Origin: a virus
Direction: 5' to 3' (one strand)
IMG/VR virus record: IMGVR_UViG_3300037153_001095
Span: 1 to 20,714 of that record
Length of the DNA stretch: 20,714 bases
Of this stretch, positions 5,838 through 20,488 are shown one piece after another. Made by a program: the position numbers and the translations under genes. The stretch's first letter is position 1. Each line of letters opens with the position of its first letter. The notes beneath the pieces are model-generated. The model did no database searches, was not told the origin of the DNA, and was given only the letters and a program-made list of their open reading frames with translations.

Positions 5838-5871
5838 AAAATCCCGACCCAGCAACAAAAGGAACTTGTCT

Positions 5872-6522
5872 ATGCAGCAAGCAACAAAAGCCGTGTCCCC
5901 GCTTCGGCGCGTTGACGAATTGCGCGCCAAGGAGGCCCAAGCGAAAGCCGCCTACGAGAAAAAGGCTGTCCAGGTGGCTGGTCTGCAGGAGCGGAAAGAC
6001 CATCCCTTGGCGGCCGACACCCAAGAATCGCTTAATGCGATTGACCAAGACCTCGGCATCGCCTCGCGCGATCTTGTGCTGCTCAAACGCGACTACGAGA
6101 TCGCGGCATCGGTTCGCGCGCAGGCCGAAGAGAATGAAGCTGCCGAGCAGAACGCACGGCAGCGCCAAGACCTGCAGCGGCGTCTCGATGAGGCCGTAAA
6201 GGTCATGCCGGATGAGTACCGCCGCAATTCGCAGAAACTGGTATCGCTCGTGACCATGGTGCACGAACTCGATCGCGAGATCGATGATTTCAACAAACGG
6301 CAACCGCCCGGCAGTGACCGACTGGCTACGTTTGAGCAGCACGTACGCTGGCCGGATCGGAACGAAAAGGGCGTGGTGCCGTTCATTCCGGTCAAGCTTG
6401 CCGATGAGTTCGAAATCGCGCCGTTGCAGCGGGGCGATAACTTCCGGGTTCCTGGCACCGTTCGGCCTGGGGGTGGGATGCTCTCTATCTGGCACGATGC
6501 CAACGGCGTCCCGCGGCGATAA
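5872..6522 (+). CDS. Coiled-coil protein, 216 aa
   Basis: Residues about 10-150 are strongly predicted coiled coil by eye: DELRAKEAQAKAAYEKKAVQ, then SASRDL-type heptads, then QNARQRQDLQRRLDEAVKV. The last 65 residues are different, with Pro, Gly and beta-type sequence (FIPVKLADEFEIAPLQRGDNF), suggesting a small C-terminal beta domain. I do not recognise the family. The ATG at 5872 has AAAAGGAAC about 8 nt upstream; an earlier in-frame ATG at 5716 would overlap the preceding gene by over 100 bp and is rejected. Its place two genes before the tape-measure-like protein allows an assembly-chaperone or scaffold role, which is only a guess. Confidence 0.6.
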   Translation: MQQATKAVSPLRRVDELRAKEAQAKAAYEKKAVQVAGLQERKDHPLAADTQESLNAIDQDLGIASRDLVLLKRDYEIAASVRAQAEENEAAEQNARQRQDLQRRLDEAVKVMPDEYRRNSQKLVSLVTMVHELDREIDDFNKRQPPGSDRLATFEQHVRWPDRNEKGVVPFIPVKLADEFEIAPLQRGDNFRVPGTVRPGGGMLSIWHDANGVPRR

Positions 6523-6692: not shown

Positions 6693-7019
6693 ATGTCGTC
6701 ATCGCTTGATGATTTTGACGCCGCTTGTGCCGATCGCCTTGCGGCCTGGATCGCCACGGCCGGCGACCGCCTGAACATCACCAAAGAGCAAAAAGATTGG
6801 ATGGCGCGCGTCGCGTGGACCATCGGCCAGGTGCCGGCCATCACAACCGAAGCCGAATGTGAAGGCCAGCAGCTGCAGCTGTGCCGCATTTTGCAAACGA
6901 ACATCGGCCATCGCTTTGAGCCGGACACTGTCGCCGCATTCCTCAAGACCGGCGACGGCGCAGTCGCGCTCGCGCTGTTGTGCCGGATCGACGCCTGGCA
7001 AAAGCGCAGGGCGCACTAA
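6693..7019 (+). CDS. Small helical protein, 108 aa
   Basis: This unrecognised, mostly helical protein (DDFDAACADRLAAWIATAG, then a KEQKDWMARVAWTIGQV helix) has four cysteines spread along it with no zinc spacing. The ATG at 6693 follows TTGAGGA with 6-7 nt spacing. It ends 17 bp before the tape-measure-like gene and is almost surely cotranscribed with it. In tailed phages, the genes just before the tape measure often encode tail-assembly chaperones. Size and position would allow that, but no frameshift site or paired extension is evident. Confidence 0.6.
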   Translation: MSSSLDDFDAACADRLAAWIATAGDRLNITKEQKDWMARVAWTIGQVPAITTEAECEGQQLQLCRILQTNIGHRFEPDTVAAFLKTGDGAVALALLCRIDAWQKRRAH

Positions 7020-7036
7020 AAAACAGAGGAATTCAG

Positions 7037-8917
7037 ATGGCAAAGGTAATTTCCGCCGAGGCGCGGATCACGGCGCTGGACGCGACCGGCGAGACGTTCG
7101 CCAACATCGCCCGCAAAGTCCGCGGCCTGTCGACGGCGTTCAAGTCGCTCGGTAACATCACTTCGCACGGCGTCGGCAACGTCAATCGCACGATCGGCCG
7201 CATGAACCGATCGATGCAGGCGTTCGGTCCGCTGGCGACCGGCACCGCCGGTCTGATGGGTGTGACCGGCCTCGAAAGCCTGGCGCGCGAGACGGTCAAG
7301 GCGACGGCGCAGCAATTCCATGAACGCATCCGCATGGAATTGGCCGGCATGGCGCCCGAGGAACGTGCCGAGGCCGAGCGGCTGTCGCTCGAACTGTCGC
7401 AGCGTTACAAAACCTTTTCGCAGACCGAGGTGTTGCATTCGCTGCGTAACATGCGCGCGATCGTCGGCACCTATGAAGAGGCGGCAAAGCTTTTAGAGCC
7501 GATCATCAAACTGCGCACGGCCGTGCTGGCGCAGCATCCCGAACATGCGGCCGAACTGGATCAGGATTTCGATCAGCTGATGAAATCGCAGGAAATCCTC
7601 GGCATCAACCAGGACCCGGCGCGTTTCGTCAAAGACATGGGTTTGATCGCCAAAGCCATGTCGGTCTTCGGCGACACGTTGAAACCGACCGACTTTTTTA
7701 CCTTTGCGCAGCACGCGCGCCTGGCCGGCCAGGGTTTTAACGATCAATTCCTTTACGGCGTTGGCCCGACCTTGATGCAGCACATGGGCGGGGCGCAGGC
7801 GGGCACGGCGCTGTCGGCGCTGTTCCAAGCGTTTGCCGGCGGTCACATGACCGTGCCGGCACTGCGCGAGTTGATGAAGCTTGGCCTGGTCGATCCTTCG
7901 CATGTCAATTTCAGCAAGGCCGGTCTGCCCACCAAAATGCTGCCGGGCGCGCTCAAAGAAAATGAGTTGTTCAAAAACAATCCCTACCAATGGATTCAGC
8001 AAGTCTTGCTGCCGACGTTGAAGGCGCACGGCATTGCGTCCAAAAACGATTTTGAAAATTTGACCGCGGTCCTAGCGTCGAGCCGCACCGCCGGCCAGGC
8101 GCTGGCGATCCTGTCGACGCAACAGCAAAACATCGAAAAAGACATGGCGCTGATGAAAGGGGCTCCGGGACTGAATAAGCAGGTCGAAATCGCCAGCAAA
8201 GACCCGTTTGTCGCGTTCCGCGGCATGACCGAGCAGCTGGAAAATCTTTTGGCGGTCGTCGGAAGTCCGCTGGCCGAGCCGGCAGCGAAGACGCTCAACG
8301 AAATCGCGGCCGGTATCGTCACCTTGGAAAAGGCCGCTAAGAACGCGCCGCTGAGTTCGCTTGCGATCGGTGTGGGTGGCCTGGGCCTTGGCGGCCTCGG
8401 CGTCTGGAAAGCCGCACGCGCGACCATGCGCGGCCTCGGCTTTGCTAGATCGGCGGCCGCTGCGACCGAGGCGGCGGCGCCCGCCGGCAGCGGTATCATG
8501 GGGCCGCTGCTCGGCACTGGGGCACCGATCCTGTTCGGCGGCCTCGGCGCGCTCGATTATCTGCGCGGCAAAGAAGCGGCCCATCAGACCGGCTTGCCGG
8601 TCGATCGCGACGTGATCACGCAGCTGCCATGGTGGCGGCGCGGTGCCGGCTGGATTCAGGAACACATGTTCGGCGCCGATCCGAATCTGCTTTATCCCGA
8701 ACTGCGCGACAAGCTGGCACCATCCGGCACACATGCCGCCGAGGTCAAGGGCAGCGCCGAGCTGAACGTCAATGTCCAGGTGCAGCCGTCCGACGATTTC
8801 GTTTCGCGGATCGTGACGGCGATCAAAAATGAAATCAACGCGTTCGGCGGCAGCACCAGCGTCGGCAGCGCCGGATCGACCGGAATGTCGATGCCGGAAG
8901 CAACGCCTAATCCATAA
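7037..8917 (+). CDS. Tail tape-measure-like protein, 626 aa
   Basis: The general make-up is that of a phage tail tape-measure protein. The N-terminus starts as such proteins often do (EARITALDATGETFANIARK). A long helical body of about 400 residues follows. Two hydrophobic Gly/Ala/Leu segments lie near residues 438-457 and 487-510. The C-terminus has a beta strand and final helix (ELNVNVQVQPSDDF, then RIVTAIKNEINAF) common at the ends of tape measures. In phages this protein fills the tail tube and sets its length. The family rule of about 1.5 angstrom per residue would give a tail near 90-95 nm. ATG 7037 has AGAGGA 6 nt upstream. No tail tube, sheath or baseplate gene accompanies it. It could instead be another long helical injected protein. 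Confidence 0.65.
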   Translation: MAKVISAEARITALDATGETFANIARKVRGLSTAFKSLGNITSHGVGNVNRTIGRMNRSMQAFGPLATGTAGLMGVTGLESLARETVKATAQQFHERIRMELAGMAPEERAEAERLSLELSQRYKTFSQTEVLHSLRNMRAIVGTYEEAAKLLEPIIKLRTAVLAQHPEHAAELDQDFDQLMKSQEILGINQDPARFVKDMGLIAKAMSVFGDTLKPTDFFTFAQHARLAGQGFNDQFLYGVGPTLMQHMGGAQAGTALSALFQAFAGGHMTVPALRELMKLGLVDPSHVNFSKAGLPTKMLPGALKENELFKNNPYQWIQQVLLPTLKAHGIASKNDFENLTAVLASSRTAGQALAILSTQQQNIEKDMALMKGAPGLNKQVEIASKDPFVAFRGMTEQLENLLAVVGSPLAEPAAKTLNEIAAGIVTLEKAAKNAPLSSLAIGVGGLGLGGLGVWKAARATMRGLGFARSAAAATEAAAPAGSGIMGPLLGTGAPILFGGLGALDYLRGKEAAHQTGLPVDRDVITQLPWWRRGAGWIQEHMFGADPNLLYPELRDKLAPSGTHAAEVKGSAELNVNVQVQPSDDFVSRIVTAIKNEINAFGGSTSVGSAGSTGMSMPEATPNP

Positions 8918-8923
8918 AAGATC

Positions 8924-10126
8924 ATGATTTCCGACTCCGCGATCGCGGACCTGAAAGCGCGCAATCCGTGCGACCAGGTCGCCGCGCAATTTGTCCGCCT
9001 GCGTAAGCAAGGCAAGATGCGGATCGGGCCTTGCCCGCTGCATTCGCCCGACCCGCAAGCGCGCGACTCCACGTCGTTCGAATGCGACGCCGATAAATGG
9101 GTCTGCGCCGTCTGTCATGACGGCGGCGACGTGCTGCGCCTGGTCGCGCTGCGGCACGGCCTCGATCCGCGTGCCAATTTCCGCGCCGTCGTCGATCTGC
9201 TTGGCGGCGTCGTCGAATTGTCGCCCGAACGGCAGGCTGAACAAAAAGCCGAGTTTGCTCGCCGCGAAAAGCAGCGCAAAAAGGAAGCCGACGATTATCG
9301 CGAGCGCGAGCGCCGCGTCGCGTTCGATATCTGGCACGCCGGCGAGGATTTCCGCGGCACGCCGGTCGAACAGTATCTGCGCCAGGCGCGCGGGATCGAG
9401 CAGCTGCCCGATCGGCTGCGGCTGCGCTATGCGCCGACCGTGGCGTTTTTTCATGGCGAGGAAACCAACGAAATCGGCCGCAAGGCTTCGCGCGTGATCT
9501 ACCGCGGGCCGGCGATGCTGGCGCCGATCGTCGACGCCGCCGGTTTTTTCCGCGCCATCCATATAACCTGGATTGACCTGGCGCAGCCGGGCGGCAAGGC
9601 CGCGATCGTGCATCCCGATACCGGCCTGGTGCTGGCATCCAAAAAGGTGCGCGGATCGAAAGGCGGCAACGTGATCCCGCTGGTCGAACCGACCGCCGAT
9701 GCGATCGCCGCTGGCGCCTTGGCCGGCAACCTGGTCGGTTATGCCGGCGAGGGCATCGAAACCGTGCTGTCGGTTTACGCCGCGCTGATGCAAGCCGGCC
9801 GGGATTTGTCGCGCGCCTGGTTTCGGGCAACCGTCGACTTGGGCAATTTGGCCGGCAAGGCGGCCGACAGCGTCCGGCATCCGACGCTGAAAGACAAAGC
9901 CGATCGCGTGCGGCGAGTGCCGGGTCCGCGACCGAACGACGCCGAGGCGTTCGCAATCCCGAAAGGAACGTCGCAGATCGTGCTTTTGGGCGACGGCGAC
10001 AGCGATCCCTTCAGCACGGCCTGCGCGCTTAGGCGGGCATCTGAGAGGCTTGGACGCCAAGGCATTCCGGCGCTGGTCGCGATGGCGCCGGCGGGCATGG
10101 ATTTCAACGATCTCCTGAGAAGCTAA
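8924..10126 (+). CDS. DnaG-like primase with CHC2 zinc finger and TOPRIM domain
   Basis: The N-terminus carries the CHC2 zinc ligand set Cys37-x2-His40 and Cys61-x2-Cys64 (CPLH, CAVC) that reads template DNA in bacterial and phage primases. A charged linker follows at about 100-135. The C-terminal half is a TOPRIM domain: acidic GEGIET (Glu276/Glu279) and GDGDS (Asp357, Asp359) are the metal-binding residues, and the ending PAGMDFNDLL is typical of TOPRIM primases in phages and plasmids. At 400 aa it lacks the helicase, which is supplied by the next gene. The ATG is 6 bp after the tape-measure stop codon with only a weak ribosome site, suggesting translational coupling. It probably synthesises RNA primers at the origin downstream. 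Function is well supported. Confidence 0.85.
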   Translation: MISDSAIADLKARNPCDQVAAQFVRLRKQGKMRIGPCPLHSPDPQARDSTSFECDADKWVCAVCHDGGDVLRLVALRHGLDPRANFRAVVDLLGGVVELSPERQAEQKAEFARREKQRKKEADDYRERERRVAFDIWHAGEDFRGTPVEQYLRQARGIEQLPDRLRLRYAPTVAFFHGEETNEIGRKASRVIYRGPAMLAPIVDAAGFFRAIHITWIDLAQPGGKAAIVHPDTGLVLASKKVRGSKGGNVIPLVEPTADAIAAGALAGNLVGYAGEGIETVLSVYAALMQAGRDLSRAWFRATVDLGNLAGKAADSVRHPTLKDKADRVRRVPGPRPNDAEAFAIPKGTSQIVLLGDGDSDPFSTACALRRASERLGRQGIPALVAMAPAGMDFNDLLRS

Positions 10127-10240
10127 CGGGCATCTGCTCCGACCGCGCCGCGTCCTGCGCAACGGTCGCCATGGGCGGGCGTCCGGTCGCGCCGGCATCG
10201 CATTCCGCAACTTGCGTAAAATCGAAAGGCGTCGGCCATA

Positions 10241-11932
10241 ATGTCCGAGGGCTGGCAAAAAATCGTCGCGGCGATCGATGCCGCGGCGCCGATCGGCGAT
10301 CCGACCGCCGCGCCGACCGAATTGGGCGAGGCGGCGAACGAAAGCGTCCACCCCGCGCCTGTCGCCGTGCCGGCCGTCAAGCAGCTCAGCGACGACGCGC
10401 GGGCCGCTGCAGCCGGCAACGTCGTCGCGTTTCCGAAAAAGGGCAAACGCAAATCCAAAAAGGCTGACAGGGCGGCAGACGCCGGCGGCGACGATGCGCC
10501 GCCGCGCGAGCCGCGCACCCTTGGGTTCTCGATCGAAGACATGAACGAGCGCTTTGCCGTCGTCCTGATGGGAGCGAAGGCGGTCATCTATACCGAACAG
10601 GCGGACGTGCCGATCGAAGATCGCAAGCGCATGCTGTCGCTGGACGCGTTCCAGACCTGGTTTCGCAATCGACGCACGGAATATCGCGCATCGGACGGCG
10701 CGATCCGCACGACAGACTGGGCAAAGGCATGGTTAGACTCGCCGGATCGGCGGCAATATTTCGGCGTCGAGTTTTCGCCGCCCGACAATGACGGCAATGC
10801 TGTCACGACGCCGGGGTATCTCAATCTGTGGTCAGGCTTTGCCGTCACGCCGGCCGAAACGCCAGACGTAAAGCGCTATAAGACGTTCCACGATCATCTG
10901 CTTAACAACGTCGCCGGCGGCGACCAGGCGCTGTTCCGTTGGGTCTTTGGTTTCTTGGCGCATCTGACGCAGCGGCCGCGCGAGCGCATCGGCGTTGCCC
11001 TGGTGCTGCGCGGTGGCATGGGCGTTGGCAAATCGAAGGTCGGCGAGGTCATCGGCCGCCTGTTCCCGGCGCATTGGGCTCTTGTTTCGAGCGCGCGCTA
11101 TGTGACCGGGAATTTCAACGTGCATCAGGCGACGTGCCTTTTGCTGCAGGCCGATGAAGCCGTATGGGCCGGCGACAAGGCGGCCGAAGGGCGCTTAAAA
11201 GACCTGATCACGTCGTCGATCCAGTATGTCGAGGCCAAGGGGATCGATCCGATCCGGGTCGCGAATTTCGTACGCGTGATGATGACAGCGAATGAAAGCT
11301 GGGTTGTGCCTGCCGGCAAAGACGAACGACGCTTTGCGGTTCTGGACGTCGACCCGCGCTGCAAACAGAATTCCGAATACTTCGCGGAAATGGAACGCGA
11401 ATTGGCAGACGGCGGCCTCGAACACTTGCTTGGTGCGTTGCTGAATTTCGACCTTAAAAGCGTCGACCTACGCAAAATCCCAAAGACCGAGGCGCTGCTC
11501 GAACAAAAGGTCCGATCGTTTAACAGCGTCGAAGCGTGGTTGTATGACCGCCTTCAGGCCGGCACGCCGACACGGCATTTGTCGGAATGGAAAACCGAGG
11601 TTCCGGTCGACGATGTGTATGAGGATTATATTTGGTCGTCGGAACGAATAGGCATCAAGCGCAAGCAGGAACGCACGACGTTCGGCACGACACTGAACCG
11701 CCTCCTTGGCAACAGTCTGCGGAAAACCAGGCCCCGCATGCAGGTAGAGGACGCCCGCGGTCACATAAAAATAGATCGCGTCTGGTGCTACGTGCTGCCT
11801 AGCCTGGGCGAGGCGCGCGCCGCGTTCGAGGCCGTGATCGAGCAATCCCCGACATGGGACGTCGTCGCCGACGATGACGACGAAGCGACCGCCGCGCACG
11901 AGCGCGATAAAGATGATCTTCCGCCGCTATAA
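10241..11932 (+). CDS. SF3/D5-like replicative helicase (DUF5906-like)
   Basis: This 563-aa protein has an Ala/Pro/Lys-rich N-terminal 90 residues, then an accessory domain. An ATPase core follows with Walker A GGMGVGKS (Lys264, Ser265), Walker B LLLQADE (Asp305, Glu306), a sensor Asn351 in MMTANES, and DERR (Arg363/364) as likely arginine finger. The core resembles the helicase half of phage and plasmid primase-helicases such as NrS-1-type and virulence-associated E/D5-like proteins. The C-terminal region (about 420-530) looks like a winged-helix domain that could bind DNA. The tail is acidic. The ATG at 10241 has GAAAGG about 11 nt before it. Placed between the primase and the iteron array, it is the likely initiator and unwinding enzyme for the element. 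Confidence 0.85.
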   Translation: MSEGWQKIVAAIDAAAPIGDPTAAPTELGEAANESVHPAPVAVPAVKQLSDDARAAAAGNVVAFPKKGKRKSKKADRAADAGGDDAPPREPRTLGFSIEDMNERFAVVLMGAKAVIYTEQADVPIEDRKRMLSLDAFQTWFRNRRTEYRASDGAIRTTDWAKAWLDSPDRRQYFGVEFSPPDNDGNAVTTPGYLNLWSGFAVTPAETPDVKRYKTFHDHLLNNVAGGDQALFRWVFGFLAHLTQRPRERIGVALVLRGGMGVGKSKVGEVIGRLFPAHWALVSSARYVTGNFNVHQATCLLLQADEAVWAGDKAAEGRLKDLITSSIQYVEAKGIDPIRVANFVRVMMTANESWVVPAGKDERRFAVLDVDPRCKQNSEYFAEMERELADGGLEHLLGALLNFDLKSVDLRKIPKTEALLEQKVRSFNSVEAWLYDRLQAGTPTRHLSEWKTEVPVDDVYEDYIWSSERIGIKRKQERTTFGTTLNRLLGNSLRKTRPRMQVEDARGHIKIDRVWCYVLPSLGEARAAFEAVIEQSPTWDVVADDDDEATAAHERDKDDLPPL

Positions 11933-11941
11933 AGGCTTTGA

Positions 11942-11976
11942 CGGAGAAAAAATCAGGTTTCGCAATTCTTTCTCCG
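11942..11976 (+). terminator. Hairpin after the helicase gene
   Basis: CGGAGAAA (11942..11949) pairs with TTTCTCCG (11969..11976) around a 19-nt loop, starting 9 bases after the helicase stop codon. The stem is only 8 bp and no T-run follows. A weak terminator or origin-edge structure is possible. Confidence 0.3.
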
Positions 11977-11983
11977 GTCCAGC

Positions 11984-12289
11984 GGTCCAAACGGTCCAAA
12001 CGGACCGCTCTGGCGACGGGCGCATTTGGACCGCAGAAGCGCCGATGAAATGGGCGTTGGTCCAAACGGTCCAAACGGTCCAAACGATTTTCCTCACGTG
12101 CGCGCGCGAGAGCGGGCAACCGCGCTGGGGCTGCCCTAGGCGGCGTCGTGAAGTCGCGAACGGACCTTTTGCTATAAGGTCAAAATTGTTTGGACCGTTT
12201 GGACCGTTTGGACCAATGCCCATTTTTTAATGACTTTTTGCGGTCCAAACGATTTTCCTTTTTCAAGGTGTGTTTGGACCGTTTGGACC
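11984..12289. repeat. Iteron array GGTCCAAAC, likely replication origin
   Basis: Eleven perfect copies of the 9-mer GGTCCAAAC are present. Plus orientation: 11984, 11993, 12059, 12068, 12077, 12242. Minus orientation: 12188, 12197, 12206, 12272, 12281. A near copy (one mismatch) on the minus strand is at 12024..12032. Copies abut in tandem blocks of two or three, so binding sites repeat every 9 bp. The triple blocks at 12059..12085 and 12188..12214 are exact inverted repeats of each other. The 18-mer GGTCCAAACGATTTTCCT occurs at 12077 and 12242. An AT-rich stretch (12215..12271) lies inside the array and could be the unwinding site. Iterons next to a primase-helicase gene are the usual form of a plasmid or satellite origin, so an origin is inferred. 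Confidence 0.75.
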
Positions 12290-12312
12290 AAGCCAATAAC
12301 GACGGAGTTTCG

Positions 12313-12385
12313 GCAGCTTTGGGCAGGATTACCCAAAGTTGCTCGCGCTGCGTCGAAGAGCTTTGGGCAATTTGCCCAAAGCTGC
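12313..12385. promoter_or_regulatory. Two TTTGGGC palindromes, operator or origin elements
   Basis: AGCTTTGGGCA (12359..12369), ATT, then TGCCCAAAGCT (12373..12383) is a perfect 11-bp inverted repeat. A related weaker site, CTTTGGG (12317..12323) and CCCAAAG (12332..12338), lies 44 bp upstream. Two dyads about four helical turns apart suggest a dimeric DNA-binding protein acting cooperatively, such as a copy-control or packaging-operon repressor. The dyads are seen; the ligand is unknown. Confidence 0.55.
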
Positions 12386-12389
12386 CGTC

Positions 12390-12816
12390 GACTGCCGGTG
12401 CGGGTCGGATTGCCTTTCCGCCCGGCATTATCACTGCGGCACTCGGGAACGCCTTAGACCGGTCATGTCCTAGTCGGCTTGACGATCGGGCGCATTCGGC
12501 CCGATGCCCATCCGGTAGGCGCATCGCCGGTCCATCCTAACGATGCGTGCTAGTCATTCTCAGTCGCGCGGTGCCGCAATCGTGCTTACCGGCCATGCGT
12601 GCCTAACAAACGAGACCGCGAACAGCGCGCTAATGCCAGCGACGCGCGCCGAATAACGAACGCTCGAGCAACGACCTAGCTCCATTCGAGCACCGGCAGT
12701 GCGGCCGGCAGTGGGTCCTTCCTGGGTAGGGTGCCTTAGCGGCCGTGCCACGGCCCGAAATCGCGCTAGTCGGACCAAATAAACACTGCCTCAACACCAA
12801 CAACATCTGAAACACC
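12390..12816. other. Noncoding stretch before terS, candidate packaging site
   Basis: About 430 bp hold no convincing gene on either strand. An inverted repeat ATCGGGC (12485..12491) with GCCCGAT (12499..12505) is present. A loose recurring motif, G/N-C-C/T-T-A-G/A, appears about ten times: CCTTAG 12452, CCTAG 12469, CCTAA 12536, GCTAG 12549, CTTA 12584, CCTAA 12601, GCTAA 12629, CCTAG 12676, CCTTAG 12734 and GCTAG 12767 (positions approximate). In lambda-like phages the cos site lies beside the gene for the small terminase subunit, so the position would fit a cos or pac region. The motif is degenerate and could be chance. Confidence 0.35.
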
Positions 12817-12829
12817 GAGGGAAGCTGTG

Positions 12830-13411
12830 ATGTCTGCCGAAACAGATAGCGCTGGCGCATCCGACGATGGTCTGTGGCTTTCGATCAGCGACATTGCGCG
12901 GGAAAAGAACGTCGATAAGGCGGCGATTTCCCGCAAGGTCGCCGAACTTGAAAACGCGGGTCGGATCGAGGTTCGCCATGGCCCTAACAGGACCAAGCTG
13001 GTCAACCTGGCGCAATTCGATGCCGAGGTCGGCGAAATAACGGATTTTGTCCGCGAGCAAGCCGCGCGGCTCACTGACGATCTGATCGGCGACTCCCGCT
13101 ACCGCGAGGCGAGGATCAAGAGCTCGCAATACGACGCGCGCCGCAAAGAGATCGAATTGCAGAAGCTAGCCGGCAGCCTGGTCGAAATTGTACGCGTCGA
13201 AGAGGTCATCGCTCAGGTCGGTGAAGAGATCAAGAAGCCGCTCGACCAGGTCCCGCTCCATGCCGAGCAGATTGCCGCTGCAGCTACGGGCGGCGGTACG
13301 CCTGCCGTCCGCAACATGCTTCGCGAGGTCATCTTTAGCGTTCGCACGCAAATCGCCGAGGCGCTTCTTAAACTCGACATCCGAGCAAAAAGCGATGGGG
13401 CTTCTGCATGA
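12830..13411 (+). CDS. Terminase small subunit, Nu1-like
   Basis: This 193-aa protein starts with a winged helix-turn-helix at about residues 15-62 (LSISDIAREKNVDKAAISRK with wing RTKLVNLAQFD). The central helical region YREARIKSSQYDARRKEIELQKLAG, with the VRVEEV segment after it, is the pattern seen in lambda Nu1-like small subunits, where it mediates assembly and contact with the large subunit. The subunit would recognise the packaging site in DNA. ATG 12830 is preferred over GTG 12827 because GAGGGA at 12817..12822 gives 7 nt spacing. The gene overlaps the large-subunit gene by 4 bp (ATGA), so translation is coupled. The neighbour makes the call fairly safe. Confidence 0.8.
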   Translation: MSAETDSAGASDDGLWLSISDIAREKNVDKAAISRKVAELENAGRIEVRHGPNRTKLVNLAQFDAEVGEITDFVREQAARLTDDLIGDSRYREARIKSSQYDARRKEIELQKLAGSLVEIVRVEEVIAQVGEEIKKPLDQVPLHAEQIAAAATGGGTPAVRNMLREVIFSVRTQIAEALLKLDIRAKSDGASA

Positions 13412-15477
13412 CCTTTACGTCCCTGTTGTCGATCGTCGCTGCTGGCCTGGCCAAGATCATCAAGCCGCAGCCGCCGATCGCGCCTTCAAAATGGGCGGCC
13501 GAGCACGTCATTTTGCCGGATGGCGAATATGGTGGGCAAAAGATCGATCTGTCGCGTACGCCACACATCATTGAGCCGCTCGATCTGCTTGGGCCGGAAT
13601 CTGCGGTGAACGAGATTGGCGTGATGAAATGCACGCAATCGGCTTTTACCACGATGCTGCTGTGTGCCATCGCCCATTCCGTCGATCGCGACCCGTGCGA
13701 CATGATGGTAGTGCAGCCGACTGACGGCGCGTTGACCGACTTCAATTCGACCAAGCTTAACCGGCTCATTGAACGCACCGAGATTCTTGGCGGCAAGGGC
13801 GGCAAGATTTTGCCGCAGACCTCGCGGTCCGCTGCGGGCTCGACCACGTTCGAGAAAAAATATCCGGGTGGGGCGCTAAACCTGGCGCTCGCGTCCTCTC
13901 CCGCGCAGCTACGGATGAAAACGATCAAAAAGGCATTTTGCGATGAGGTCGACGAATACGAGGATGACCTTGAAGGCCAGGGCGATCCGCTCAAACTCAT
14001 CGCCGGCCGGCAAATGTCGTTTCTCGCGTCCGGCACCTGGAAGCGAGCTTACGTTTCGACGCCGACCGTAAAGGGTGCCTCGAAAATCGCCGAGATATTC
14101 GAGCGCGGCGATCAGCGGCGCTGGCACGTTCCGTGTCCGCATTGCGGCTCGCGCTTCGCATTCGAATGGCGGGCACCGTACGATCCCTCCGCGCCCGGCC
14201 TGAAATTCGCAAAGACCTATCCGCACCAGGCGCATTACGTCACGCCGTGCTGCGGCTCGATCATCGAGGCTTGGCAAAAGACCGATCTTTATCGCGCCGG
14301 CGAATGGCGGGCGACACAAACCGGACCAGGCCGGTTTCCGACCTATCACTTCGACGCGATCGCTTCGCCATTCGTGCCGTGGGACGAAATCGCAAAGGAA
14401 TTCGTCGGCGCCGGCGATGATCCGACAAAGCTGAAAGCGTTCTGGAATCTCTTTCTCGGGCTGCCGTATGACGTCGCCGGCGATGCGCCCGATCACGAGC
14501 TGCTGATGCAGCGCCGTGAGGATTACGAGGCGGGCTGCATCCCGTCTGGCGCGCTTCTCGTTACCGCGTTTGCCGACGTGCAGATGCGCGGCATCTACGT
14601 CGAGGTCGTGGCCTGGGCGCCCGATCAGCAAAGCTGGACAATCTTTGCCGATTACCTCGACGGTATCACTACAGAGGTCGACGACGGCGCGTTCGCGCGC
14701 CTGACCGAAATCTATCGGCGGCAATGGCCCGACGCCTACGGCAATGCTTGGCAGTTGAACGAAATTGGCGTCGATTCTGGCTATCGCACCGACGTCGTTT
14801 ATGAATGGACCCGGCGCCACCCCGGTGCCAAGGCAACCAAGGGTGTCGACGGCTGGGGCAAGGTGCCGCTTGGGCTCGCGAGCGATCAGGACATCGATTA
14901 TCGCGGACGCAAGATGAAGGGCGGCGCAAAACTTCGCGCCATCGGCACCTGGCCGCTCAAATCGAAATTTTACAGCTATGTCGCGCTGACGCCGGTGGTC
15001 GAAGGGTCGGCCTTGATCTATCCGCCCGGCTATTGCCACTTCGGCCGTTTCCTGGACGATGGCTATTTCAAGCAGCTCACGGCCGAATTTCTGGACGAAG
15101 AGAGTTTCCGCGGGCGTGTGCGGAAGGTTTGGAAAGTCCGCGGTTCGCGCGAGAACCATTTCTTCGACTGCCGTGTCGGTAATCTGGCGCTGGCAAATGC
15201 CTATTTTATCGGACTGACCGCCGACGATTGGGCTCGCATTGCGCAGGAACGTGGCGTGCCCGCCGACTTGAAAGAACCCGACCTGTTCAATCCGCTCGCT
15301 CGTTCGCGGTCGGAAGCGGCGCCGGCTGCATTCGAGGTCTCGCTGGCAAAACTAATCGAAAAGCAAAGTCACGTTGCGCAGCCGGACGCTGCGCCCGCGC
15401 CCCAGGACGAACCATCACCGGATGTGAAATCGCGAAGCCATTTTGATGGACTCGCTGAATTGAACCGAGGTCTATGA
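13408..15477 (+). CDS. Terminase large subunit, GpA type
   Basis: This 689-aa protein has the full length of the lambda GpA family, an ATP-driven packaging motor with a nuclease domain. Visible features are an ATPase N-terminal half with a deviant Walker A region MKCTQSAFTT (residues 73-82), a Walker B CDEVDEYEDD (Asp179, Glu180), STPT at about 217-220, and zinc-type cysteine pairs CPHC (243, 246) and CC near 276. The nuclease half has acidic FADVQ, GVDSGYR and ENHFFDCRVGN segments characteristic of the family. The Walker A region lacks the usual G-K-T/S triplet; the early Lys74 may serve, as the deviant Walker lysine does in lambda. The gene overlaps terS at its start and the deoxyribosyltransferase-like gene at its end. 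The call is strong. Confidence 0.93.
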   Translation: MTFTSLLSIVAAGLAKIIKPQPPIAPSKWAAEHVILPDGEYGGQKIDLSRTPHIIEPLDLLGPESAVNEIGVMKCTQSAFTTMLLCAIAHSVDRDPCDMMVVQPTDGALTDFNSTKLNRLIERTEILGGKGGKILPQTSRSAAGSTTFEKKYPGGALNLALASSPAQLRMKTIKKAFCDEVDEYEDDLEGQGDPLKLIAGRQMSFLASGTWKRAYVSTPTVKGASKIAEIFERGDQRRWHVPCPHCGSRFAFEWRAPYDPSAPGLKFAKTYPHQAHYVTPCCGSIIEAWQKTDLYRAGEWRATQTGPGRFPTYHFDAIASPFVPWDEIAKEFVGAGDDPTKLKAFWNLFLGLPYDVAGDAPDHELLMQRREDYEAGCIPSGALLVTAFADVQMRGIYVEVVAWAPDQQSWTIFADYLDGITTEVDDGAFARLTEIYRRQWPDAYGNAWQLNEIGVDSGYRTDVVYEWTRRHPGAKATKGVDGWGKVPLGLASDQDIDYRGRKMKGGAKLRAIGTWPLKSKFYSYVALTPVVEGSALIYPPGYCHFGRFLDDGYFKQLTAEFLDEESFRGRVRKVWKVRGSRENHFFDCRVGNLALANAYFIGLTADDWARIAQERGVPADLKEPDLFNPLARSRSEAAPAAFEVSLAKLIEKQSHVAQPDAAPAPQDEPSPDVKSRSHFDGLAELNRGL

Positions 15478-16148
15478 TGCACACGAAATCTAATAAGATA
15501 AGTCCCGCTTTAGCTGCCATCGCGCAGGGTCTTGCGGAGGGATTCCGGCCAGGACCGAAACGTCCTGCGGCCGAAACTCCGAAGCGCCCTAAGCTTTATT
15601 TTGCCGATAATTCGCGGCAGCAGCCGAACGCGCATAAGCATCGCGCTTTGATCGAAGCACACTGCACCCACAATGGCGTGGTCGCGGAGTGGCCGGCCGA
15701 GCACGATCTATTTCCGACCAGCCTTACGACCGAACAGCGTAAAAATGGCGGGCCGCCGATCGATGATCCGGCGCCCGGCCGTGTGCTGCACAAGGCCTGG
15801 TACCGCATAGGTCATTGCGACGCGGTCGTGGCCGAGACCACGCCGTTTCGCGGTGTCCATATGAATCCTTTGGTGGCCTTTGAGGTCGGGATCGCTGTCG
15901 TGCACAGCGTTCCAGTTTTTGCTTGGACCAAAGATTTTGATCGGCGAGGCTTAAATTCGATGATGGATCGCCTATGGCCGAGCCGGGCGCCTGATGGGAA
16001 TTGGCGCGACCTGGTCGACGACTGCGGCGACCTGATCGAAAACTTTGGCATGAACCAGTTTGCCCAGATTGCCGGCAATTTCGTTTCGCTGTCTCCGTCC
16101 CTCTACCATGCAATAGCGGAAGCGAAACAGTATTTGGCAACGCGTTAA
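15477..16148 (+). CDS. Nucleoside 2-deoxyribosyltransferase-like protein
   Basis: This 223-aa protein carries the hallmark block of the Nuc_deoxyrib_tr family at about residues 112-140: GHCDAVVAETTPFRGVHMN followed by AFEVG, where Glu136 is the expected nucleophile. The N-terminal LYFADNS strand matches the usual Y-L-A-G/A start. Family enzymes transfer deoxyribose between bases, or hydrolyse nucleotides in related branches. The common DPGTA segment is NPLVA here, so the activity may be altered. An Ala/Pro/Lys-rich 38-residue extension precedes the domain. ATG 15477 is preferred (GAGG 6 nt upstream), though ATG 15474 is also possible; either way it overlaps the terL stop. Its tight coupling to terminase suggests a role in DNA metabolism or host-phage conflict. 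The family is likely; the substrate is unknown. Confidence 0.72.
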   Translation: MHTKSNKISPALAAIAQGLAEGFRPGPKRPAAETPKRPKLYFADNSRQQPNAHKHRALIEAHCTHNGVVAEWPAEHDLFPTSLTTEQRKNGGPPIDDPAPGRVLHKAWYRIGHCDAVVAETTPFRGVHMNPLVAFEVGIAVVHSVPVFAWTKDFDRRGLNSMMDRLWPSRAPDGNWRDLVDDCGDLIENFGMNQFAQIAGNFVSLSPSLYHAIAEAKQYLATR

Positions 16149-16273
16149 GCGCTTCGCCTGACCGACAACTTTCACTTTCAAACCCGGACCGTTTTTGTCC
16201 GCGGCTGTTCGGCCTCAAGAAGCGAGGTCGCGCGGCGCAGGCAAAAGGCGTTTTTGCGTTAGGAGCGCCTGGC

Positions 16274-16465
16274 GTGACTCGACCGCTGCGCATCAACAAA
16301 ACCGAGTTGCGACGCCTCATCGAGGTGGCGCGGGAAACCGGCATGCGCATCGTCATTCGGCCCGATCGGTCGATTGTGTTGGAGGAAAAGCCGGCCGGCG
16401 AGGGCGTGGCCGCCTTGGGACAAGGCTGCGATGGGGGTTCACCTGACCGGGAGATCGTGTTCTAA
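16274..16465 (+). CDS. Small integrase-linked protein, 63 aa
   Basis: The GTG at 16274 has AGGAG 8-9 nt upstream. The protein starts with a basic helix (RINKTELRRLIEVARE) followed by a short beta pair (RIVIRPDRSIVLEE) and a Gly-rich tail. Its stop codon directly abuts the integrase ATG, so the two are coupled. From memory, short proteins of this type, with an IVIRPDGSI-like strand, are common just before integrases in alphaproteobacterial prophages. The position and basic helix would suit a recombination directionality factor or integrase accessory protein, but there is no classical excisionase HTH. An upstream extension of the frame to 16001 overlaps the preceding gene and is rejected. Confidence 0.6.
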   Translation: MTRPLRINKTELRRLIEVARETGMRIVIRPDRSIVLEEKPAGEGVAALGQGCDGGSPDREIVF

Positions 16466-17653
16466 ATGGACCCAAAACCGAGCCGCGATATGCCGCGTCC
16501 CCGCCCGCCATACCTGCAGCGCCATACGACCCGACATGGGAATTGCGTCTGGTATGTCCGCGTTGCCGACGACGCGGGCAGGCGCAAGAATGTTCGGATC
16601 AAAGGCGAGTATGGCACGCCGCAATTCGTCGCCGCGTATGAGGCGGCCTTGGCGGGCAAGCCGGCGCCGCCGCTGCCCTATGACAAAGCGATTGCTGGCA
16701 CGGTGAAGTGGCTGATCGACCGTTACCGCGAAAGCCAGGCGTGGCGAGACTATTCGCCGGCGACGCGCCGGCAACGCGAATTTATTTTCCTGCAGATCAT
16801 CGCCAAGGCGGGCAACGAGCCGCTGCGCAATGTCACGCGCGGCGCAATTGCGAGAGGCCGCGATGAGCGCGCTAAGACGCCGGCTCAGGCGCGGCACTAC
16901 ATGGAAGCGGTGCGCGGCCTGTTTTCCTGGGCGCTCGATGCGCAGCTGGTCGCCTTCGATCCCTCGGCCGGGTTGAAAGACCCGGCGCGCAAGAAGGGTG
17001 GCGGGTTCCGCGTCTGGACCGAGGAAGAGGTGCAACGCTACGAGTCGCGTTGGCCGCTCGGCACGCGCCAGCGCGTCTGGTTGGATGTGCTGCTCTACTC
17101 GGGGCTGCGCCGGAGCGATGCCGTCAAGCTTGGCCGCGGTCATGTGCGTGTCTTCAGTTCGAAGGGCCGCCGCGTGCGCGTACATACGATCGCGACGCAG
17201 AAATCGGGCGAGACGGTTGACGTCACGCTGCCGATTTTGCCGCAGCTGCAGGCGACGCTTGACACCGGGCCGATCGGCGCCGAGACCTACATCGCCGGCA
17301 AGCGCGGCAAGCCATTCACCAGGGAGAGTTTTGGCACTGCGTTCGCCGAGGCATGCAAGCTCGCCGGCGTTCCTGGCAGGGCACACGGCATCCGCAAGCT
17401 TGGCGCCACGCGCGCCGCCAACAATGGCGCCACGATCAATCAGCTGCAGGCGCTGTTCGGTTGGACCGATGTCAAGATGCCGATGCTCTATACCAAGTCG
17501 GCGGATCGCCAGCGCCTTGGCGTCGAAGCGGCATCGCTGCTTGCATTCGACGATGCTGCCGCACGGGCGATGGTTCCTGATACCGCGACCGTGCTGCCGC
17601 TCTACAAGGAAGGTCGTGGTCGGGCCGCAGGCAAAGACCCTGACGGCGCCTGA
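16466..17653 (+). CDS. int: Tyrosine recombinase (phage integrase)
   Basis: This 395-aa protein has a basic N-terminal arm-binding region, a core-binding domain at about residues 75-165 and a C-terminal catalytic domain. Catalytic residues visible in order are Arg215 (GLRRSD), Lys246 (TQKSGE), His307 and Arg310 (HGIRK), Trp333 in place of the second His (FGWTD), and the nucleophile Tyr342 (MLYTKSAD). Trp at the fifth position is an accepted variant. It would cut and join the 17-bp core at the tRNA-Tyr 3' end. The gene starts directly after the 63-aa gene, with only a distant GGGAG, so translation is probably coupled. It ends 12 bp before a convergent cargo gene. Length and motifs indicate an intact enzyme. 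Confidence 0.93.
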   Translation: MDPKPSRDMPRPRPPYLQRHTTRHGNCVWYVRVADDAGRRKNVRIKGEYGTPQFVAAYEAALAGKPAPPLPYDKAIAGTVKWLIDRYRESQAWRDYSPATRRQREFIFLQIIAKAGNEPLRNVTRGAIARGRDERAKTPAQARHYMEAVRGLFSWALDAQLVAFDPSAGLKDPARKKGGGFRVWTEEEVQRYESRWPLGTRQRVWLDVLLYSGLRRSDAVKLGRGHVRVFSSKGRRVRVHTIATQKSGETVDVTLPILPQLQATLDTGPIGAETYIAGKRGKPFTRESFGTAFAEACKLAGVPGRAHGIRKLGATRAANNGATINQLQALFGWTDVKMPMLYTKSADRQRLGVEAASLLAFDDAAARAMVPDTATVLPLYKEGRGRAAGKDPDGA

Positions 17654-20402: not shown

Positions 20403-20419
20403 TGGTGGGGGAGGTAGGA
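20403..20419. repeat. Right attachment core within tRNA-Tyr
   Basis: TGGTGGGGGAGGTAGGA here forms the 3' end of the tRNA gene (CCA, discriminator, acceptor strand, start of the T stem). It is identical to 148..164. The tRNA on this side is intact, so integration did not destroy it. Confidence 0.88.
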
Positions 20420-20488
20420 CTCGAACCTACGAAGGCGTAAGCCAGCGGATTTACAGTCCGCCCCCTTTGCCGCTCGGGACACTCCCCC
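20403..20488 (-). tRNA. tRNA-Tyr (anticodon GTA)
   Basis: Read on the minus strand, the gene is 86 nt with an encoded CCA. The acceptor stem GGGGGAG pairs with CTCCCCC, the anticodon loop is CTGTAAAT with GTA at 20454..20452, the variable arm is long as in bacterial tyrosine tRNAs, and the T loop is GTTCGAGTC. It is the integration target; the element joins at its 3' end. Confidence 0.95.

Follow-up and report, generated by a model that had tools for sequence, protein, structure and literature searches.

Among described replicons, the nearest counterparts of the locus analysed here are the origins of SaPI, SCCmec and Gram-negative PICI elements. The SaPI Rep protein binds iterons downstream of its own gene via its C-terminal domain, apparently as two hexamers, and in the SCCmec precedent the isolated C-terminal domain of Cch2 (residues 400-538) binds the origin of that protein (PMC7581432). 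The rep-ori of a Gram-negative PICI replicates a plasmid (PMC6092414). Few short-iteron origins of self-loading phage or satellite helicases are known.

Here we consider an array of 9-bp iterons in a 20,714-nucleotide viral sequence (IMG/VR record IMGVR_UViG_3300037153_001095, hereafter the window), which an earlier note, made from the letters alone, had read as a probable replication origin. We put at roughly 0.87 the probability that this array serves its element as replication origin and is recognised by a self-loading SF3 helicase encoded just upstream. Strong support for the earlier reading comes from a helicase-linked geometry and from plasmids that have 9-bp iterons at the matching place, both of them sequence features that are consistent with origin function.

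The array, its helicase and its carrier

An exact-match search of the window found eleven copies of GGTCCAAAC within 11984-12289, so that the eleven perfect 9-mers reported previously were all recovered, position for position. The window holds 17 sites when one mismatch is allowed; dinucleotide shuffles give 3.9 +/- 1.7, with 9 as the largest count, and a single 306-bp stretch contains 12 of the 17. The features of the locus are as follows.

8924-10126, plus strand: gene for a TOPRIM primase with a CHC2 zinc finger (PF13362, PF01807, phrog_510)
10241-11932, plus strand: gene for a DUF5906 SF3 helicase of 563 aa (Pfam PF19263, E=8e-19)
11984+, 11993+, 12059+, 12068+, 12077+, 12188-, 12197-, 12206-, 12242+, 12272- and 12281-: exact GGTCCAAAC sites, by exact match
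11984-12001, plus strand: left outer iteron pair, two tandem GGTCCAAAC copies, exact, 57 and 66 bp from the left triplet
12024-12032, minus strand: left single inverted iteron GGTCCAAAT, one mismatch, 26 bp from the triplet and inside the family range
12059-12085, plus strand: left iteron triplet, three 9-bp units head to tail, exact
12086-12187, no strand: core between the triplets, 102 bp, 61% GC
12095-12108, no strand: CG-alternating element CACGTGCGCGCGCG at the left edge of the core
12188-12214, minus strand: right iteron triplet, exact
12215-12271, no strand: AT-rich right-arm DNA around the single iteron, 38% GC
12242-12250, plus strand: right single inverted iteron, exact, 27 bp from the triplet
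12272-12289, minus strand: right outer iteron pair, exact, 57 and 66 bp from the triplet

The block order given in the earlier note (2+, 3+, 3-, 1+, 2-) is right for the exact copies and had passed over a twelfth site, GGTCCAAAT, which lies on the minus strand and differs from GGTCCAAAC at one position. With this site included the mirror symmetry is complete, the twelve sites forming an exact dyad (2+ 1- 3+, core, 3- 1+ 2-) in which the gaps counted outward from the triplets are 26/57/66 bp in the left arm and 27/57/66 bp in the right. The array begins 51 bp past the helicase stop (11932); of the two genes that it was thought to follow directly, the helicase does adjoin it and the primase is one gene further upstream. 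Similarly, an AT-rich stretch that the iterons were said to surround does exist (35-45% GC, at about 12160-12299) but it sits in the right arm, the core between the triplets being GC-rich; the AT-rich right-arm DNA is a candidate melting region. In relatives the GC content of the core ranges from 37 to 76%. The 27-bp stem envisaged for the opposed triplets is part of a longer inverted repeat, with 44-nt arms at 12048-12091 and 12182-12225 that are 95% complementary; it is a by-product of the dyad and not the conserved feature.

Exact searches with an 18-mer and a 23-mer returned only chance or coding matches (Paenibacillus, Paraburkholderia and two viral records), which indicates that the word GGTCCAAAC is itself rare, and the one locus with a 9-bp array that is related, though degenerate, is L008. 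Near the array of the window no exact match to the DnaA box (TTWTNCACA) is present. A second inverted-repeat cluster, CTTTGGGCA/TGCCCAAAG, occupies 12311-12387, between the array and the gene for the small terminase; its form is iteron-like, and it may serve the terminase or packaging.

The helicase scores 68.8 bits against PF19263, for which the gathering cut-off is 27.6, and the same family is matched by all 47 of the 47 aligned helicase relatives; weak RFX/Pox_D5 domain matches also occur among the relatives. Its AF2 model (mean pLDDT 84) has a predicted C-terminal winged helix at about residues 453-533, with a beta-helix-helix-beta wing. Foldseek comparison of the model returned NrS-1 (6k9c, E=6e-18), PriRep1 with dsDNA (7pds, E=7e-10) and SaPI5 (7ola, E=1.5e-9), the latter two each with a probability of 1.00. 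A sequence profile search returned NrS-1 (6k9c, E=1.5e-26) and no SaPI chain, the SaPI structures being reached by fold only. We propose that the DUF5906 helicase is the iteron-binding initiator, and that the TOPRIM primase, which has homologues in 15 of 21 related records, is its priming partner. No non-helicase initiator of the RepA, TrfA or Pi type was recognised by Pfam or PHROGs among the main open reading frames of the window.

The carrier itself is an integrated element. A 17-bp direct repeat, TGGTGGGGGAGGTAGGA, is present at 148-164 and at 20403-20419, the right copy coinciding with the 3' end of a tRNA-Tyr gene (20403-20488, minus strand). These repeats mark the attachment sites, and hence the window holds a complete integrated element of 20.2 kb. 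The element encodes an integrase, the primase and helicase, small and large terminases, and a homologue of a gene whose place in a contractile-tailed phage is after the tail sheath. Positions 6980-17653 of the window share with two related loci, L125 (G409) and L124 (G006), the order tape-measure-like gene, helicase, array, TerS, TerL, deoxyribosyltransferase-like gene and integrase, to which the window and G409 add the primase. No portal, capsid or sheath was recognised in the window element or in those of G409 and G006. A contractile-tailed phage (G010) has a TerL 71% identical and a tape-measure-like gene 51% identical to those of the window. The three elements may represent a satellite family that brings its own terminase, or else parallel decay.

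Arrays beside related helicases

An alignment-based scan yielded 80 loci with related helicases, none of which had been returned by a single-sequence search. In 44 of the 80 relatives a cluster of at least six copies of an 8-mer lies no more than 720 bp from the 3' end of the helicase gene; the rest of these loci, 581 kb in all, contain two such clusters. Opposed triplets, sought by a consensus-free test, occur within 800 bp of the helicase in 35 of the 80, twice in 571 kb of other sequence from the loci, and not at all when the loci are shuffled. Both outlying instances belong to phages in which the helicase is present as well, with the array some 2.3 or 3.4 kb further downstream. In most relatives the array is 3' and not 5' of the helicase gene, and most of the closer ones have a differing 8-9-mer in 4-12 copies just past the gene. 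The check advised in the earlier note, to look beside helicase homologues for the 9-mer array, thus finds arrays at 44 of the 80 loci, with the geometry conserved and the iteron sequence not.

Homologues without such repeats, which had been named in advance as evidence against an origin, do occur among the distant YuA-like phages (33-40% helicase identity), which encode a DNA polymerase of their own and lack an array; the closer loci that lack a clear array are in part of another kind, several of them having degenerate sites in the matching layout (e.g. L021, L031). No array was detected in isolated YuA-group phages, a Rhizobium phage, Vibrio J2, Achromobacter JWX or Rhodobacter RcRudolph.

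Iterons in the relatives were called with no assumed word and then oriented. The geometry of the GGTCCAAAC array recurs with other words, among them GTCCAACCT, GCCCCACCT, TGTCAGACC and GTCATAGGT. Across the 36 loci with opposed triplets (33 once near-duplicates are removed), exactly three outer sites are present in 34 of 36 left arms and 33 of 36 right arms, and in 52 of 61 arms the single site is 26-29 bp from the triplet. Between triplet and outer pair the gap takes two values: 35 arms have 44-47 bp and 25 arms have 55-57 bp, with none at 48-54 bp. These classes differ by one helical turn, which is what assembly of a protein on one face of the DNA would be expected to impose. The triplets themselves are 77 to 160 bp apart from centre to centre (loop length 50-133 bp), and no phasing of this distance was detected (Rayleigh p>=0.12), which suggests that each arm is a unit independent of the other.

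Two further elements accompany this layout. Many relatives have, at a fixed offset in the spacer between triplet and single site, a motif YAANNNNTTGATW that we take to be IHF-like from the general IHF consensus. With up to two mismatches it is found in 30 of 66 arms against 4.8 expected, and exactly in six against 0.04 expected, L030 and L052 being among the relatives with exact sites; in the spacers of the window the motif is degenerate, with at least three mismatches in both arms. The first 35 bp of the core, at its left edge, contain CGCG in 32 of 33 elements, against 7 expected and 7 at the right edge.

Some arrays depart from the usual position or form. A 74-kb phage record (L086) has at 7708-8038, 2.3 kb downstream of the helicase, a perfect 2-1-3/3-1-2 array of ACCCTGACC in which every outer site is oriented opposite to the triplets; a nearly identical word is used by E. 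coli plasmid pEC224_4 and Microcystis phage MJing1. Another locus (L059, about 5850-6118) has the architecture of the window with an iteron period of 10 bp in place of 9 bp (AAGGTATGT), and Ruegeria phage Tedan (L106, 8235-8529) has nine copies of GCCTTACA in a looser arrangement about 3 kb past the primase-helicase gene.

The helicase family is also found in plasmids. In a 9.7-kb Roseomonas plasmid with a DUF5906 helicase, an array in 9-bp steps overlaps and follows the end of the gene, and in pEC224_4, also with a DUF5906 helicase, such an array lies 300 bp past it; since pEC224_4 encodes a RepB initiator as well, the array may not be its only origin. In MJing1 the array begins right past the annotated primase gene. 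The 7.6-kb Vibrio vulnificus plasmid pMP1, whose sole recognisable replication gene is the helicase, has nine copies of AACTGTACC (L013, 6574-6931) in opposite orientations on two sides, with wider and irregular spacing. No array was detectable in M. nodulans pMNOD07 or Rhizobium pTH2c, both of which have the helicase family.

The word and the helicase vary together. Within an element the iterons are on average 87-99% identical to their own consensus, and between elements the mean identity is 64%. Iteron distance tracks helicase distance (Mantel r=0.54, p=2e-4, n=31), a correlation to which common descent contributes, and which, taken region by region, is similar along the protein and singles out no one domain. 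That a dozen dispersed sites change in concert implies a reader protein changing with them, and we infer that the reader of GGTCCAAAC is the C-terminal winged helix of the helicase.

Proposed origin function and its alternatives

If the array is an origin, its use might be pictured as follows. The winged helix of the helicase would bind the GGTCCAAAC sites, and each arm would probably be bent within its spacer of 26-29 bp, with IHF as the bending protein in many relatives. A bent arm could bring its six sites, three distal and three proximal, together in a single complex for the loading of one hexamer, so that two hexamers would face each other across the core, melt either the core or the AT-rich right arm, and then run outward. 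The TOPRIM primase would start synthesis, and the excised element would replicate bidirectionally in theta mode. Binding, the loading of one hexamer on each arm, bending, melting and forks that move both ways are all drawn from the SaPI, SCCmec and Gram-negative PICI precedents.

A bolder and more tentative formulation, to which we give somewhat less than even odds, is that the array consists of two mirror-image six-iteron half-origins, independent, IHF-bent and helically phased, each of which loads exactly one SF3 hexamer. Twelve sites would then specify one double hexamer and bidirectional replication, and the 9-bp word would be an address that can be exchanged and that evolves jointly with the winged helix in phages, plasmids and putative satellites alike, which together would make a previously undescribed class of origin.

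Two alternatives, both improbable, deserve discussion. The first is that the array serves for packaging, as a pac/cos site to which the small terminase binds; the gene for that protein starts at 12827, 540 bp downstream of the array, with the CTTTGGGCA/TGCCCAAAG repeats (12311-12387) in between. Across the relatives, however, the array tracks the helicase, and beside the same form of array the large terminase varies, being GpA-like (phrog_15) or phrog_9. Moreover, the Roseomonas and E. coli plasmids have arrays and no annotated terminase near the helicase, and in L086 the array is 2.3 kb away from the helicase gene. To the second, a partition centromere or transcription operator, we assign an equally small likelihood. 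Some centromeres and operators also consist of short direct repeats in phase, and the related phage G010 has ParA/ParB-like genes, but the window contains no recognisable par gene, the usual place of the array is 3' and not 5' of the helicase gene, and the geometry of the sites follows the helicase clade. A dual role, as origin and in autoregulation, is possible. Least probable of all, and barely credible, is an RNA stem-loop terminator or attenuator in the helicase transcript, formed by the inverted triplets: the 95% complementarity of the 44-nt inverted repeat would suit it, yet no significant Rfam family was found (one miRNA match, E=0.29, far under the gathering score), the loop length varies from 50 to 133 bp, and the single sites and outer pairs, which would not lengthen the stem, have conserved distances.

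The origin reading has consequences beyond this element. One geometry across dozens of divergent elements, with a word that is free to change, provides a natural code-breaking set for helicase-origin specificity, and the spacing rule, with its two values 10 bp apart, predicts the shape of the loading complex. The shared geometry also offers a simple route to origins, and to replicon grouping by compatibility type, in uncultured phages and plasmids. If it is true that each six-site arm loads one hexamer, the anatomy of the origin would directly count helicase subunits.

Comparison with known origins

The classical iteron plasmids (RK2, R6K, pSC101) have direct repeats bound by an initiator, often with the involvement of IHF. 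Their units are of 17-22 bp in one tandem block, and their non-helicase WH1-WH2 initiator needs host DnaA and DnaB. The 9-bp units in both orientations do not fit an origin of this type. By both sequence and fold the solved structure closest to the helicase is the helicase region of the NrS-1 primase-polymerase (6k9c), which, unlike the protein here, has an N-terminal primase-polymerase fused to it.

The PICI and SaPI elements (SaPIbov1, SaPI5, EcCICFT073) share more. Like the locus here they have a self-loading helicase with a C-terminal DNA-binding domain, in our case a predicted one, and an origin directly 3' of rep in which two sets of short iterons are placed around a central stretch (PMC6092414, PMC7581432). 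The window helicase also resembles PriRep1 (7pds) and the SaPI5 primase-helicase (7ola) in fold. Here, by contrast, the primase is a separate TOPRIM protein, the carriers are mostly temperate phages, and the AT-rich stretch that lies between the iteron sets of PICIs and SaPIs is replaced by a GC-rich core (61% GC in the window) with a CG-alternating element, AT-rich DNA being located in the right arm. The twelve-site 2-1-3/3-1-2 geometry is fixed here, although this comparison was made without PICI iteron coordinates and PICIs may share it.

In P4, the type I iteron CTGTTCACC is short, resembles TGTCCAACC and occurs as a 9-bp tandem pair, and in the annotated genome crr is directly 3' of the alpha gene. 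The six type I sites of ori1 are in 3-1-2 order with 56-57 bp from triplet to pair, matching one arm here. In P4 the single site is nearer the triplet and the sites are split between ori1 and crr, several kb apart, whereas all exact GGTCCAAAC copies lie in one 306-bp stretch. Homology of the helicase to P4 alpha was not supported (hhalign probability 17%, with alignment of the Walker region only). Because the P4 likeness is a single case and could be coincidence, we limit ourselves to saying that the array probably works like P4 alpha/ori, not that it is one. It probably works like the PICI/SaPI rep-ori as well. Among origins of the PICI, SaPI and P4 kind, what is notable, and supported by the comparison of sequences, is a strictly conserved twelve-site dyad whose iteron words appear to be exchangeable.
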